A stretch of 37,288 nucleotides of DNA from Phycisphaerales bacterium UBA1845 (GTDB lineage Bacteria; Planctomycetota; Phycisphaerae; UBA1845): the NCBI GenBank assembly GCA_002338715.1, contig DDIR01000073.1, forward strand, positions 42,526 to 79,813, written 5' to 3'. Positions 3,486-10,047 of the stretch are shown piece by piece (positions within the stretch are counted from its first letter, which is position 1; the number at the start of each line of letters is the position of its first letter). Made by a program: the position numbers and the translations under genes. A model generated the notes under the pieces. The model saw nothing but the letters and a program-made list of their open reading frames with translations. It was not told where the DNA came from and ran no database searches.

Positions 3486-5897
3486 TTACATCGCTTCGGC
3501 GACGTTCTTCAGTTCTTCTGATGCTGCGTAGAACTCGGGAAGGGCCATGTCGCTCAGGTAGACGATGCCTCTGCACGCCCGCATGCCGTGGTCCTTGCTG
3601 TTGACGAAGAAATCTTCGCCGAGCATGGTCTTGATCTGGTCGAACTGCTTGACCTGGATCTTGCGGGCGAGGCGCGAGAACGGGCCATCCATCTCGTAGC
3701 TCGGGAAGGAGGCTGTCTTCTGCGTGTTGAAGCAACTGTCGAAGCAGTTGTCCATGTCGGTCAGGTGCGTCAGCGACGTCGGCACGAACAGGTTCGATTC
3801 GGATGGGTGGAATTTGAACCACACGTTTCGGTAACCGAGCACGCGGATGTCGTGACGGCCCGATTCCTTCTCGTATTCCTTCAGCGCCTGCGAGACGGCT
3901 TGCAGAACCTTGTAGTGCGTGTCGGGTCCGCTGCCTTCGGGGTCGAATGCGACGGTGACGATGTCGGGGTTCACCTCGCGCAGCAGGTCGTGGATCGGCG
4001 GAACGTCGCGGTCGATGCGCGGCGGTTCGGTGAACAGATCGCCCTTGTAGAAACCGAGTCGCAGGTGGCGGACAGCTTCTCCGAGGAACCCATAGTACGC
4101 CCACTTGAGTTCCGATTCGTACTCTCGAACGCGGCCTTTGAGCTGCTGAACGATGGCGATGTCTTTCTTACCGGGATATTGCGTCGCGAAGTAGTTGAGC
4201 AGTTCGGCACAACGCTCTTTGATGTTGTCAGCCCGGTCTTCTTCGTATACCTCAAACAGGTTGCGGAGCAGGCGGCGCGAGACGGCTTCGGTCTTCTTGT
4301 CTTCGTGGTTGCGGGCCGCTCCCTCGTGGTAGTACGACACGTCGATTTTGCGGGCCTGCGTGCTGTTCGGATCGAAGTAATGGTTGGCCAGCAGTTCATC
4401 GAACTCGCCGCGATTCATCCGCTTGAGCACGTCTTCGATGGCGTTGTGCATGTAGCTGTTGGTCACTGCGTTGAACCCGGAGGTCATGTACGCGAAGTGG
4501 TGCACCGTGCTGCTGCGACGGACAAGGTTCGTCACATACGGCAGGTAGGCCAGGATGATGTCATCGTGGTGTGGAGCCGTGTGCAGGAAGCTCTTCTGCT
4601 CGATCGGGCGATTGCCTTTGATCAGGTTGTCGAGAATCTGCTTGTGCGTCAGTTCCTTCAAAGCCTGCGGGGTCTGCTTGGTTTTCGTGAGCAGTTCCGC
4701 GCCGAAGCGGTTGGCTTTGAAGTCGGCTTCGGTGAGCGTCTCGATCGCCTTGTTGTTGTCGAGCGAAAGGTCCATCACGATCTTGTGGACTTGTCGATCG
4801 GACACGGTTTCGCAACGCTGCAAGTCAATGAACGAACGATTCGTCAATCGTTTCGCCGCCCCCTTCGTCAGGTAGAAGCGTGCATGCGGCAGCACCGAAA
4901 GCGCCGAACCGGGGAAGCGGTTGATCGCCTCGGACTGAATCGTGTTGGCCACCACTTTGGCTTTTGCTTCACCGGCAGCGATGATGATGGCCACCGCGTT
5001 TTTGTTGTACGTGATCGTCTGCAAGCCGATGGTGATGACGTGCTTCGATCGTGCGACTTCCATACCGCCCAAGTCGCTGGCAGCCGCGGCCCTTGTTTCA
5101 TAGTTGGGCTCGAAGAGTCGCGTGGTGGAATAGAAGTCGGCCCCGCGCACGTTAAAGGCGATGTGTCCGTCCGGTCCGATCCCGCCTAGGAAGAATCCGA
5201 TGCCGCCCATGCCGCGAATCTTGCGTTCGTATTCGGTGCAGAACTGGTCGACCTGTTCGAGGACGGCTTGCTGGCGCTTTTCGAGAAGCGACTTGGCTTT
5301 TCGCACACGCAGCGTCAAGTCGACGGTCATCTCCGGGAAGACATCGGTGATGCGCAGACCGCGCGGTATACCGATGTGGCTCGGATCGATCAGCATGGCC
5401 TTAGCCGGGTCGAGCCCGAATTCGCCAAGGTAATATTTGTTGACGTAATAGCGGAAGCTGTTGTGCTGCCGCGTGTCGATTGGGTAGAACTCGTCGATCT
5501 GCACGAACCGCAGGTCGCCCATGACCGGTTTGCGATCGGTCGAGAGGCCCATCGATTCCAACTCAGCCCGCACGTCTTTGCGGTTCCAGTTGCGCAGGTA
5601 GTGCATCACGTACTTGATGAAGTATTCAGGCGTCTTGCCTGTGGGAAGCGCGACCGAACCGGTTGGGTTTTGCAGAACCCATTCCAGGAAGCGGACAGCC
5701 GTCAATCGACCGAGGCGCGGAAAGTTGTCAACGATGACCGAACCGATGCGCTCCAGCGGCCCATAGCGAAGATCGTATCCGCTGGCTTTGAGTGCGATCT
5801 GCTCGACGGGACTCATCGTTTGAGATTCGCGCGACTTTTTGTTTTCAGATTTTGGTTGGTCGGTTGAAACAGTTTTGGCCGTCACTTGACTCGCCAT
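3486..5897 (-). CDS. Fused glucosamine-6-phosphate deaminase-like / PIG-L deacetylase-like enzyme
   Basis: An 803-residue protein of two halves. Residues about 50-350 are NagB-like: VALPTGKTP near 83-90, QIDEFYP near 133-139, and GGIGPDGHIAFNV at 238-250, the sugar-phosphate isomerase/deaminase active-site loop. Residues about 435-800 begin with HTAPHHDDI, which matches the metal-binding AHPDD-type motif that opens PIG-L/LmbE de-N-acetylases. NagB converts glucosamine-6-phosphate to fructose-6-phosphate and ammonia, while PIG-L proteins remove N-acetyl groups, so a combined amino-sugar role is plausible. A single NagB is about 260 residues. The ATG at 5897 has AAAGGA 8 bases upstream. No signal peptide is seen, so it is cytoplasmic. 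A ROK regulator gene lies just upstream on the same strand. Both substrates are inferred. Confidence 0.88.
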   Translation of the reverse strand: MASQVTAKTVSTDQPKSENKKSRESQTMSPVEQIALKASGYDLRYGPLERIGSVIVDNFPRLGRLTAVRFLEWVLQNPTGSVALPTGKTPEYFIKYVMHYLRNWNRKDVRAELESMGLSTDRKPVMGDLRFVQIDEFYPIDTRQHNSFRYYVNKYYLGEFGLDPAKAMLIDPSHIGIPRGLRITDVFPEMTVDLTLRVRKAKSLLEKRQQAVLEQVDQFCTEYERKIRGMGGIGFFLGGIGPDGHIAFNVRGADFYSTTRLFEPNYETRAAAASDLGGMEVARSKHVITIGLQTITYNKNAVAIIIAAGEAKAKVVANTIQSEAINRFPGSALSVLPHARFYLTKGAAKRLTNRSFIDLQRCETVSDRQVHKIVMDLSLDNNKAIETLTEADFKANRFGAELLTKTKQTPQALKELTHKQILDNLIKGNRPIEQKSFLHTAPHHDDIILAYLPYVTNLVRRSSTVHHFAYMTSGFNAVTNSYMHNAIEDVLKRMNRGEFDELLANHYFDPNSTQARKIDVSYYHEGAARNHEDKKTEAVSRRLLRNLFEVYEEDRADNIKERCAELLNYFATQYPGKKDIAIVQQLKGRVREYESELKWAYYGFLGEAVRHLRLGFYKGDLFTEPPRIDRDVPPIHDLLREVNPDIVTVAFDPEGSGPDTHYKVLQAVSQALKEYEKESGRHDIRVLGYRNVWFKFHPSESNLFVPTSLTHLTDMDNCFDSCFNTQKTASFPSYEMDGPFSRLARKIQVKQFDQIKTMLGEDFFVNSKDHGMRACRGIVYLSDMALPEFYAASEELKNVAEAM

Positions 5898-6107: not shown

Positions 6108-7325
6108 TTAATCGTGTGCGACAACGCCGCGTGGATTTGCCCAAAACCGCTGGCAAACCTCAGCCGCTCCGCCAACCGCACGGTCCTGCGTGATGACTTC
6201 TCCTTCGACAACTTTGAGGTTGCGAAGATCCCAGTCCAAAACCATCTCCCGAAGTCGCCGGTGCACGCCATCGCGCAACGCGTGGTTGTTTTCAAACAGA
6301 TACCCACCGAGTACCAGGACTTCCGGGTCGTATGCCGCTACCACCATCGCAGCGCCCAGCGCGATGAAATTCATCTTGCGATACAGCAGCGTCGAGAATG
6401 GCTTTGTATCGATCTCCTTGTAATGATCGAAGCACGCATGAACGATTTCCTGCGTTGGCAGTTTTTCGTCAATCGCTTTCAAAACGCGCTTCGGTATGTC
6501 GTTGCGATCAAGCTCTTTCACGCCGGCGACGATGCCCGGACCCGAGGCGACGGATTCAAGGCAACCGCGGTTACCGCAAGGACACTTCCGACCGCCCGGT
6601 TCCACAACGACGTGACCAAGTTCACCCGCACGCTGCGTTGCGCCTGCAAGGGGGCGTCCTTGCTGAACGAATCGTGCGCTGATGCCTTGCCCCGCACGAT
6701 AGTAGGCGAGGCTTGACGCGTCGCGCCCGGCTCCCATGAGGGATTCAGCCGCTGCATTCATCGCGGTGGCTGCACCCTGCACGAGCACGTTGGTTTCATA
6801 TTTCTCGGTGAGCAGTTTACCGAGCGGTTCGTTATGCCATCCCAACGATGCACACGTGACGACGTTGCCGAGGCGATCGACCGCTCCGTTGATTCCTGCC
6901 CACAATCCGAGAATGTTCTTCAGACCGAGATCGATCTGCGAAAGCAATCCGCGTAACGCAAGATCGATTTGTTCGAGCACCATGTCGAGCGTTCGGTCTT
7001 CACCGAGGACGACGGTGGCGCGACCCATCGGATGACCGTCAGCCGCAACCAACGCCAAGTGCAACTCGTCGGCTGCGATGTCGATGCCTGCAAAGCACCC
7101 GATCGCGCGGTTCACCGCGAGAAGAATGGCGGGTCGGCCTCGGCCTTGACCGGACTGACCTACCTTTTGCAACCAACCCGAAGCCATCAGCCGCTGCGTC
7201 GCCCCGTTGACGGTGGACCGTTGTCGGCCCAGGTGGTCAGCGAGTTTATGTTGCGGTAAGGGCCCGAGGCGATGCACCACTTGAAGAACCTGCCAATCCA
7301 TGGGTCTGATCGTCGCGAAATTCAT
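6108..7325 (-). CDS. ROK-family transcriptional regulator
   Basis: A 405-residue protein with an N-terminal winged-helix DNA-binding region (about residues 8-70; LPQHKLADHLGRQRSTVNG looks like the helix-turn-helix). It continues into a ROK domain. The ROK zinc site is present: His238 in GELGHVVVEPGG and Cys248, Cys250 and Cys255 in CPCGNRGCLE. In sugar kinases of this family the catalytic Asp sits in an NDAN-like motif. Here the matching stretch reads VQGAATA, so Asp is absent and kinase activity is unlikely, as in NagC/Mlc-type repressors. It sits directly upstream of the NagB/PIG-L gene and probably controls it in response to an amino-sugar derivative (inferred). The ATG at 7325 is preferred; a TTG at 7361 would add 12 residues. 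Confidence 0.88.
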   Translation of the reverse strand: MNFATIRPMDWQVLQVVHRLGPLPQHKLADHLGRQRSTVNGATQRLMASGWLQKVGQSGQGRGRPAILLAVNRAIGCFAGIDIAADELHLALVAADGHPMGRATVVLGEDRTLDMVLEQIDLALRGLLSQIDLGLKNILGLWAGINGAVDRLGNVVTCASLGWHNEPLGKLLTEKYETNVLVQGAATAMNAAAESLMGAGRDASSLAYYRAGQGISARFVQQGRPLAGATQRAGELGHVVVEPGGRKCPCGNRGCLESVASGPGIVAGVKELDRNDIPKRVLKAIDEKLPTQEIVHACFDHYKEIDTKPFSTLLYRKMNFIALGAAMVVAAYDPEVLVLGGYLFENNHALRDGVHRRLREMVLDWDLRNLKVVEGEVITQDRAVGGAAEVCQRFWANPRGVVAHD

Positions 7326-7602
7326 AAGATCGGAATCCGTATCTATTCCCGATCTCCGCAAAACCTATCTTATTAATGTTCTAGCGGAGATTCAATGAAA
7401 TTGATACAATTAAATTCAGTCAAGGTATTAAATTGCCGCCAGCAGCGATTTGGCTTGATTGGTTGATGACGGCCACGAGAATTGTTGGGGAGCCGTTCAT
7501 GGACAACGTCGAAGCCGGAAATCATCATTCGTTCGGCCCAAATATGTCTTTGTAGGTCGCATTCTAGCACAAAAACCGCTCTTAGTAGATGGGAGATCAC
7601 GC

Positions 7603-10047
7603 ATGATTGGCATACTTTATGCCCGCCATCCATTGGCTTCATTGGGTCATATGGCGATTGTGGCTGCATTGGTCATTCAAGCCGGTTGTCATAGGGTTTC
7701 CACCCCAAAGACGCCCACGCCGGATACCTTCGAAAATCAGAAAAAAGCAACCCCCAATCTGGATTGGGCGGAGGGGCGACAGCTTTACACCTTCACCGAA
7801 AACGAGCTCGGTCAGTACATCGGAGGCATCAAGTCGACCCATCCGAACCTGACGGAGCGCGTGATTCATCTTGGACGCAAGAACATTGGGCAGCCCTACG
7901 ACATCTACCTGCTCGGTGAGTATCCCTTTGAGACGTACGATCCCGATCCGCTTTACTGTCTTTCGCGCAGCGATTGTCTGACGTTTTGCGAGCACATCTA
8001 TTCGATGGCGTTGTCGGATGACTTCCCTTCGTTTCTGCAAACGCTTCAGCGACTGCGCTACAAAGGCGGGCGCATCGGCATGCTTACCCGCAACCATTAC
8101 ACCGCAGCCGACTGGAATCGAAACAATGCCGACTTGTTTGTTGACCTGACGACGCAGCTCGGCGAAGGCAAAGTGCAAGTGCCTTTTACGCAGGTGTGTC
8201 GACGCGCGCGCTACTTCAAGAAGTTTGGCATCGGGCAAGACATTCCCGACGAACCGATCACCGACTCGTACATTCCGAAAGAACGCGTCCCCGAGATTCT
8301 CGACGAGTTGCAAGCCGGCGATTTCGTCAACATCGTGCGCGGCAGCGAAGCGTCGCAGTGGGTTGGTCATACCGGGCTTGTCGCGATCGCCGACGATGGA
8401 ACGGTGGATTTTCTGCACTCGGCTGGGAAAGCGGTTCGTGAACAGGAACTGGTTGGTTATCTCAATGGCGACAAGAAGTGTGTGGGCGCGCGCTTCATGC
8501 GCCTTCGCGACAACGCCGAAACGCTGATCAAGAAACTGCTTGACGACGACAGCGTGACGGACGTGTCGCCAGACGCATTGCAACGCGCGTGGAACCAGCA
8601 GCAGGCCAAGCGCATCGACGCGATCAAGCAACCGCCGCTTACGTGGATGGAAGCGCAGCGCCTGCAAGGTTATCGCCTGGATTACGATTCAAAGACCGAC
8701 GCATCACTCCAAACCGCGCTGGAGCGAATCGATCAGGACGTGCGAAAAACCCTTGAAATCAAGGCTGATGATCGGTCGTTCGGGGTGCTGTCGCTCAACG
8801 ATCAAAAGCTGGCGATGATCGAGCCCGACCGCATGTTCTACGGAGCCAGCGTGCCGAAGATCGCGATTTTGCTGGCGTATTTCGAAACCCATCCCGATGC
8901 CGCGACGAATCTTCCCGACGACGTGCGCGACGAGTTGGGACGGATGATCAAGAATTCCGACAACGTGTTAGCTGCCAAGTACGGTGCGATGATCGGGATC
9001 GAAAAGGTGCAGGAGATTGCACAGTCCAAACGCTATCAATTCTTCGACAAGGATCACGGCGGCGGGTTGTGGTACGGCAAGCACTACGGCAAAGATTCGC
9101 CGCGCATCGGTGATCCGATTCACGATCATTCGCACGGCGCGACGGTTCGGCAGTGTCTGCGCTACTACCTGCTGATGGAGCAATTGAAGTTGGTCAATGC
9201 AGAAGCGTCGATCACCATGCTGGAGATATTCGCGTCCGAGCAACTCGAGCACGGTCAATCCAAGTTCGTCAAAGGTTTGTCATCCAAAGCCGATTCGATT
9301 CTGCGAAAGAGCGGTACCTGGCGCGATTGGCATTTGGACACTGCACGGGTGCGACATGGCGATCACTTCTATCTCATCGCGGGAATGGTCAATCATCCGA
9401 GGGGCGCAGAGTATTTGTCTGAGATGGCCAGCCGCATCGATGAGTTGATTTGCAACAACGCATCGCCTTCAAACGTTGTCGCGCAAGTCGATGGACAACA
9501 ACCGCTTGTCAAAGTCGCCGACGTCGTACCGGGCATCGTGCTCGATCTTCGGTACGCGACCACCGACAATTTCACGGGCGAGCAGTTGTATCCGCAGGCC
9601 ACCTGCCTGTTGCGCAAGAACGCGGCTGACCGGTTGGCCCGGGTGCAGGCGGGTCTTCGCGAACGTGGATTGGGGCTGAAAATCTACGACGGATATCGCC
9701 CGCTCTCGGTGCAGAAGAAAATGTGGAAGCTGGTCCCCGATCCGCGCTACGTCGCCGACCCCAAGGACGGGTCGAGACACAACCGCGGATGCGCTGTTGA
9801 TGTGACGCTGGTTGATGCGGACGGACATGAGTTGGAAATGCCCACGGGCTATGACGACTTCACGGAAGCCGCCCACCAGGACTATGAGGGCGGGTCGCCA
9901 GCCTCCCGTCGCAATCGCAACCTCTTGCGGGCGGCGATGGAATCGGAAGGCTTCGTCGCGCTCGACACGGAATGGTGGCATTTTGATGCGCCCGATTGGC
10001 AGGCGCATCCCGTGATGGATGTGCCGCTTGCAAGCGTGGGGAATTGA
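7603..10047 (+). CDS. Three-domain peptidoglycan-active lipoprotein: DUF1460 + class A beta-lactamase-like + VanX-type dipeptidase
   Basis: An 814-residue lipoprotein. The signal peptide ends in IQAGC (Cys29). Residues about 55-310 match the DUF1460 N-acetylmuramoyl-L-alanine amidase-like (NlpC/P60-fold) family: Cys125 in RSDCLTF and His256 in GHTGLV. Residues about 365-620 look like a class A beta-lactamase/penicillin-interacting serine hydrolase: S416-VP-K419 (SxxK), S452-D-N, and K569-S-G. Residues about 635-805 are a VanX/DdpX-like D-alanyl-D-alanine dipeptidase: His726 and Asp733 in SRHNRGCAVDV, and Glu790 and His793 in EWWHF. All key catalytic motifs are visible in each domain, so it may act outside the cytoplasm on muropeptide stems and D-Ala-D-Ala. 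The ATG at 7603 has GGGAG 7 bases upstream; an earlier in-frame start at 7459 would put 48 residues before the signal peptide. Confidence 0.9.
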   Translation: MIGILYARHPLASLGHMAIVAALVIQAGCHRVSTPKTPTPDTFENQKKATPNLDWAEGRQLYTFTENELGQYIGGIKSTHPNLTERVIHLGRKNIGQPYDIYLLGEYPFETYDPDPLYCLSRSDCLTFCEHIYSMALSDDFPSFLQTLQRLRYKGGRIGMLTRNHYTAADWNRNNADLFVDLTTQLGEGKVQVPFTQVCRRARYFKKFGIGQDIPDEPITDSYIPKERVPEILDELQAGDFVNIVRGSEASQWVGHTGLVAIADDGTVDFLHSAGKAVREQELVGYLNGDKKCVGARFMRLRDNAETLIKKLLDDDSVTDVSPDALQRAWNQQQAKRIDAIKQPPLTWMEAQRLQGYRLDYDSKTDASLQTALERIDQDVRKTLEIKADDRSFGVLSLNDQKLAMIEPDRMFYGASVPKIAILLAYFETHPDAATNLPDDVRDELGRMIKNSDNVLAAKYGAMIGIEKVQEIAQSKRYQFFDKDHGGGLWYGKHYGKDSPRIGDPIHDHSHGATVRQCLRYYLLMEQLKLVNAEASITMLEIFASEQLEHGQSKFVKGLSSKADSILRKSGTWRDWHLDTARVRHGDHFYLIAGMVNHPRGAEYLSEMASRIDELICNNASPSNVVAQVDGQQPLVKVADVVPGIVLDLRYATTDNFTGEQLYPQATCLLRKNAADRLARVQAGLRERGLGLKIYDGYRPLSVQKKMWKLVPDPRYVADPKDGSRHNRGCAVDVTLVDADGHELEMPTGYDDFTEAAHQDYEGGSPASRRNRNLLRAAMESEGFVALDTEWWHFDAPDWQAHPVMDVPLASVGN

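Follow-up and report, generated by a model that had tools for sequence, protein, structure and literature searches.

A three-domain fusion of predicted peptidoglycan-active enzymes in a planctomycete and its possible role in muropeptide salvage

We herein describe an 814-aa protein, encoded within a 37,288-nucleotide stretch of DNA (hereafter the window), in which three domains from families of peptidoglycan-active enzymes are joined: a DUF1460/AmiA-like amidase, a serine domain of the PBP-A/class A beta-lactamase type and an M15D dipeptidase. The original prediction of this fusion is confirmed, as all three domains were matched (PF07313, class A-like, M15D), their folds were predicted, and the catalytic motifs are visible in each (Cys-His-His, SxxK/SDN/KSG and the M15D residues); its interpretation is partly supported. 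The planctomycete host suggested earlier also holds, given that the named close records are Phycisphaerae metagenome-assembled genomes. We think it rather probable that the protein is a multi-enzyme peptidoglycan hydrolase, which dismantles the peptide stems of muropeptides for nutrition. Muropeptide breakdown is usually presented as the work of separate enzymes acting in series, whereas three or four of its steps appear to be fused here in one protein. On present evidence, the 814-aa protein combines known enzyme families in a new way, its context pointing coherently to salvage, and is not a resistance gene.

The three-enzyme gene (7603..10047, + strand) runs from ATG to stop and is preceded by a Shine-Dalgarno-like GGGAG (7591..7595, +). 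Since its orthologues are intact, a misassembly or frameshift joining separate genes is rejected, and the fusion stands as a single gene. The protein begins with a hydrophobic N-terminus extending to Cys29 (7603..7689, +), for which a low-confidence model gives a helix at residues 12-26. The earlier description of the protein as a lipoprotein stands only in part: Cys29 does follow a hydrophobic stretch, but the strict lipobox [LVI][ASTVI][GAS]C is absent, with Q at position -3 in IQAGC (a strict lipobox is present in 22 of the 85 N-termini examined). Judged from its sequence, the protein is probably exported and possibly membrane-anchored, with lipidation only putative. Comparison with three same-genus orthologues gave dN/dS values of 0.06-0.12 in each of the three domains and 0.32-0.45 in the N-terminus, ratios that are rough because dS exceeds 1 in six of the nine domain comparisons; purifying selection acts on all three domains.

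The amidase domain (residues 63-312; 7789..8538, +) matches PF07313 (DUF1460) at 94.9 bits against a cut-off of 27, and its triad, formed by C125 (7975-7977), H256 (8368-8370) and H272 (8416-8418), aligns with solved members of the family. Among the best 120 of at least 659 homologues, found from 7998 candidates, the triad is kept in 108/108, 111/111 and 112/113 proteins, respectively, that have a letter at the position. The matched solved chains of the DUF1460/AmiA NlpC/P60 amidases (PF07313; 2im9, 2p1g, 4q5k) comprise 240-333 residues, whereas the present domain is fused to two, and in relatives to three, more enzyme domains. The M15D D-Ala-D-Ala dipeptidase domain (DdpX/VanX type, residues 632-810; 9496..10032, +; marked residues R699, H726, D733, E790 and H793) passes the DdpX-type NCBIfam equivalog NF007557 (190.1 bits, cut-off 176). 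Its zinc and catalytic residues align with those of the DdpX/VanX dipeptidases (M15D; 1r44): H726, D733, H793 and E790 correspond to H116, D123, H184 and E181 of VanX, which we take to be the zinc ligands and base. They are kept (H726 23/23, D733 21/22, E790 22/24, H793 23/24) where a letter is present among the best 120 of 659 homologues, in counts whose last columns may include a few aligned C-termini lacking M15D. DdpX/VanX dipeptidases are normally single-domain proteins, whereas the present domain is part of a fusion.

The proposal that the protein serves to strip and reuse muropeptides draws support from its NagC-like and NagB-like neighbours and from its co-occurrence with NamZ. Divergent from the fusion gene lies a gene for a ROK-family regulator with a MarR-type HTH (6108..7361, -), which adjoins some homologues too and whose best NCBIfam match is NagC, below cut-off (104.8 vs 650 bits). 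Beyond it, as seen from the fusion gene, an 803-aa NagB-like and PIG-L-like protein (glucosamine-6-phosphate deaminase-like; 3486..5897, -) is encoded, a conserved neighbour at some loci, with both matches below cut-off (NF002557, 210.5 vs 384 bits; Pfam PIG-L, 23.8 vs 28.2 bits). We compared 13 loci with an AmiA-containing homologue (the window, L003-L006 and L052-L059), scanning part of the neighbouring ORFs; a NagB-type gene lies near seven of them, four of which (the window and L003-L005) represent one genus, and a ROK regulator is present at six. L006 carries a ROK gene together with a NagB that exceeds the nagB cut-off (314.3 vs 236.9), L054 and L056 carry regulators of the GntR/sugar-binding type, and neither NagB-type nor ROK genes occur among the neighbours scanned at L053, L055, L057, L058 and L059. 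Next to the fusion gene, we identified no transporter that would serve the products.

The divergent promoter region between the fusion and ROK genes (7362..7602, no strand assigned) shows 87% mean column identity across the four same-genus loci and is a candidate operator; it contains ATTAAATT-like direct repeats approximately 20 bp apart, which may represent an operator or a leader. An RNA element in this region was rejected, with no Rfam family over cut-off and two chance-level matches, as was an operator shared with the NagB-like gene, because the region upstream of the latter is little conserved. Two further observations concern the compared loci. L052 encodes, at 499-2688, a protein combining a metallophosphatase and a PQQ beta-propeller, whose cluster is found in six of the 22 loci compared, and L004 (JANQQE010000021.1) is syntenic with the window though titled Alphaproteobacteria, and is presumably mislabelled.

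Across a set of 60 genomes (own genome and 59 relatives), the 814-aa protein is matched in 21 and, by our reading of the matches, the joined amidase and middle domains, hereafter the core, in 11 (G000, 001, 003, 004, 010, 011, 043, 044, 051, 054 and 057). NamZ is present in 16 of the 60, namely in 10/11 core carriers vs 6/49 others (Fisher p=1e-6), or, taking one genome per genus, in 7/8 vs 6/46 (Fisher p=7e-5), both tests ignoring relatedness. An orthologue of the NagB-like/PIG-L protein with at least 66% identity occurs in 7/11 carriers vs 0/49 others, and in 25/60 genomes once weaker matches are included. As a control, GH43 is found in 3/11 carriers vs 9/49 others (p=0.68; two of the three lie below the family cut-off), and, counting matches over that cut-off, in 1/11 vs 9/49 (p=0.67); genome size does not differ significantly between carriers and others (medians 5.2 and 4.5 Mb, p=0.17). 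The carrier G043 is without NamZ; conversely, the NamZ genomes G033 and G045 have no match to the 814-aa protein, and G049, G052, G055 and G058 have its domains only separately. In G054, a single contig holds the core gene together with a NagB-like match and a NamZ gene, each no more than about 13 kb away from it. The first NamZ gene of the own genome clusters with NlpC/P60 and DgcN-like genes (L081 8126-13374; DgcN-like 281.7 vs 480 bits, below cut-off), an arrangement that recurs in G001 and G003, the two same-genus genomes compared, but is missing from the remaining NamZ loci that we compared. This cluster probably belongs to the salvage system as well; DgcN is described as acting in D-Glu degradation in PMC12363236. 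The second NamZ adjoins a sodium:solute symporter, and a search for an AmpG-like importer gave 12 MFS matches, none distinguishable as AmpG.

It is possible, though in our view unlikely, that the 814-aa protein recycles or matures the peptidoglycan of the cell itself during growth instead of acting on wall material from outside. As all 60 genomes have matches to the PBP transpeptidase (PF00905) and to Mur ligases, a supply of own muropeptides is to be expected, which would be within reach of a periplasmic protein. PF00912, the class A PBP transglycosylase family, finds no match in the own genome (G000, 91% complete), a gap that raised the possibility that its own peptidoglycan is absent; since PF00905 and Mur ligases occur in all 60 genomes, we rejected it. 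Planctomycetes were long said to lack peptidoglycan (PMC4432595). However, the occurrence of wall genes in all 60 genomes makes the fusion protein unnecessary for wall building, and the restriction of the core to a minority of these genomes, together with its co-occurrence with NamZ and the NagB-like/PIG-L protein, fits a catabolic trait that is optional. Moreover, same-genus G002 (90% complete, 5% contaminated) possesses the wall genes, whereas neither the 814-aa protein nor NamZ was matched in it.

For muropeptide salvage, possibly from foreign wall material, we would propose the following order of steps. The two NamZ exo-muramidases encoded elsewhere in the genome would provide MurNAc units, the N-terminal AmiA domain is predicted to cut the bond between MurNAc and L-Ala, the PBP-A-like serine domain to remove the terminal D-Ala or to open 4-3 cross-links (as a D,D-carboxy/endopeptidase), and the C-terminal M15D domain to split D-Ala-D-Ala into D-Ala. 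Peptide and D-Glu would pass to the NlpC/P60 peptidase and the DgcN-like enzyme, respectively, and the NagB-like/PIG-L neighbour could feed the amino sugar into glycolysis, putatively under the NagC-like ROK regulator. The supply of substrate to the dipeptidase is the weakest step of this scheme. The product of a PBP-type enzyme is D-Ala, so that D-Ala-D-Ala would need to come from another cut or from lysed cells; we may speculate that such a cut is made by an L,D-peptidase, perhaps C39_2 in the relatives. NamZ-dependent peptidoglycan salvage is known from Bacillus subtilis and Tannerella; NamZ, NagB-like and NagC-like parts also co-occur here, but the peptide-stripping steps are fused in one protein. 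Dependence on muropeptides is reported elsewhere, for Fidelibacter multiformis (PMC11652737). The fused protein, the ROK regulator, the NagB-like/PIG-L protein and the two NamZ enzymes would constitute a testable gene set for peptidoglycan consumption by planctomycetes.

The middle serine domain (residues 357-619; 8671..9459, +) possesses, by sequence match and predicted fold, a class A fold with the SxxK (S416 at 8848-8850, K419 at 8857-8859), SDN (452-454 at 8956-8964) and KSG (569-571 at 9307-9315) motifs. Folded alone (16 sequences; pLDDT 90.1, pTM 0.91), it gave PBP-A as the top match in VIA-align (2j9o 25.6, 2j7v 25.4), followed by LRA-5 and a class A-like protein (24.4 each) and a class A enzyme (24.2), so that the lead of PBP-A over class A beta-lactamases, about 1 Z, is a tie; the first nine rows of a Foldseek search were PBP-A (TM 0.65-0.67). 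A search of PDB sequences with the middle-domain profile returned zero matches. The PBP-A D,D-peptidase of Thermosynechococcus, ranked first within this tie, shares with the middle domain the SxxK/SxN/KxG motifs and the absence of an omega-loop Glu, but identity is approximately 18% and the host is not a cyanobacterium. Class A beta-lactamases and LRA-5 (8eo5) have the fold and motifs in common with it as well; active class A enzymes, however, carry a deacylating Glu (Glu166), whereas residues 472-525 of the 814-aa protein include no Glu.

Among the best 120 of 659 homologues, Glu reaches a frequency of at most 0.49 in every column of this region; at least one Glu occurs somewhere in columns 474-514 in 103/118 of them (none in 15/118), and within 497-501 in 68/118, that is, in 17/38 proteins inside the 38-row tree group discussed below and 51/80 outside it. 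Stand-alone relatives have Glu, a possible counterpart of Glu166, at the column of P500 in 97% of cases (119 new ones, of 2232 found). As the presence of Glu in this region varies among homologues, we claim its absence for the 814-aa protein alone and not as a family trait, and other members of the family may differ from it in function. The stand-alone relatives (P0121-P0239) also show invariant columns W490, G492, H494 and Y495 besides the Glu missing from the 814-aa protein; they are often named 'beta-lactamase class A', and their named sources include Verrucomicrobia and Thermoanaerobaculia.

The missing Glu would also fit a middle domain that acts as a binding module, a penicillin-binding-like sensor or anchor that holds on to D-Ala-D-Ala ends and brings the amidase and the dipeptidase into position, with no turnover of its own; since the serine motif is lost in P0074 and the whole middle domain is lacking in P0098, the protein can do without it. 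We regard this as improbable, however. The catalytic positions are kept almost throughout the best 120 of 659 homologues (S416 117/119, K419 115/119, S452 118/119, N454 116/119, K569 117/117, G571 116/117), the domain is under purifying selection, and PBP-A, described in PMC11189452 as both a D,D-carboxypeptidase and a D,D-endopeptidase, turns over peptides without the omega-loop glutamate, the residue that, according to the same source, chiefly sets class A beta-lactamases apart.

Alternatively, the fusion could give resistance to beta-lactams or glycopeptides, with the middle domain hydrolysing beta-lactams and the VanX-type domain removing D-Ala-D-Ala precursors. VanX is cytoplasmic, belongs to van clusters and acts on cytoplasmic precursors. 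The class A beta-lactamase-like fold with its motifs and the VanX fold with its active-site residues speak for resistance, but we consider it very improbable, and a resistance island disfavoured, given the missing Glu, a score of the dipeptidase domain far below the VanX resistance equivalog NF033115 (80.4 vs 320 bits), the hydrophobic export-like N-terminus, the amino-sugar nature of the adjoining conserved genes, the finding that the 20 scanned ORFs of the window include no van-type ligase and no VanH or VanA, and a strongest D-Ala-D-Ala ligase match that, being situated some 2 kb from a Mur ligase on contig C72, looks like an ordinary Ddl. Wild-type LRA-5, likewise without Glu166, conferred MICs equal to those of control strains (PMC12777564). 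Proteins of this kind may nevertheless be annotated automatically as 'beta-lactamase class A' or 'VanX-like' and so enter counts of resistance genes, a warning prompted by the many middle-domain relatives that one source names 'beta-lactamase class A'.

The expectation that the same three domains would recur in conserved order across planctomycetes was not borne out. Exactly these three domains are found in five of the best 120 of 659 homologues, the 814-aa protein and four others at 75-78% identity; four-domain relatives, with C39_2 in addition, are more widespread (14 proteins, P0006-P0019), and many of the same 120 consist of the amidase and middle domain alone, with or without C39_2. Extra modules in this set include a transglutaminase domain in one protein and a PF09992 domain in four. 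Together with the two cases noted above, P0111, which is without the amidase, indicates that the domain set is not rigid. In an even sample of the phylum, the core was matched in 0 of 293 other genomes, and some domain, mostly M15D, is matched in 41 of 294. A quick, midpoint-rooted tree of 109 amidase and middle regions, in which 36 of the 106 inner branches are open, placed all 20 M15D-bearing rows within one 38-row group (SH-aLRT 100), in which the five three-domain proteins form a nested group (SH-aLRT 100). The simplest history is that M15D was gained once and that the lineage of the 814-aa protein lost C39_2 afterwards. Replacement of the lost module by a stand-alone C39_2 was rejected, there being no C39_2 match in the 91%-complete own genome. 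No account of this domain order was found in the literature covered, a scope that leaves most subscription papers outside and in which three papers mention DUF1460.

More tentatively, and with less than even confidence, we suggest that exported 'stem-stripping' proteins may make up a combinatorial family in Phycisphaerae, in which a core of DUF1460 and PBP-A-like domains acquires and sheds C39_2, M15D, transglutaminase and PF09992 modules and which, with NamZ and NagB-like proteins, would form a peptidoglycan-eating system; the middle domain would then be the first known PBP-A-like wall hydrolase of the class A fold outside cyanobacteria. If true, this branch would bear on how class A beta-lactamases arose.

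M15D domains are joined to serine hydrolases elsewhere in the phylum as well. Eleven M15D ORFs of other planctomycete families were chosen for their length and eight were scanned; two of them, L103 and L106, encode proteins of about 1070 aa with a C-terminal M15D and no Pfam match in the first 880 residues. In six of the eight long ORFs scanned (L100-L102, L104, L107 and L110; approximately 760-1740 aa), a PF00144 serine hydrolase lies N-terminal to M15D. As in the 814-aa protein, a penicillin-interacting-type serine fold thus precedes M15D, but these fusions differ from it in their serine family (PF00144) and in the absence of a DUF1460 match. The joining of M15D to two different serine families suggests, at the level of domain composition, that the two activities may share a substrate.
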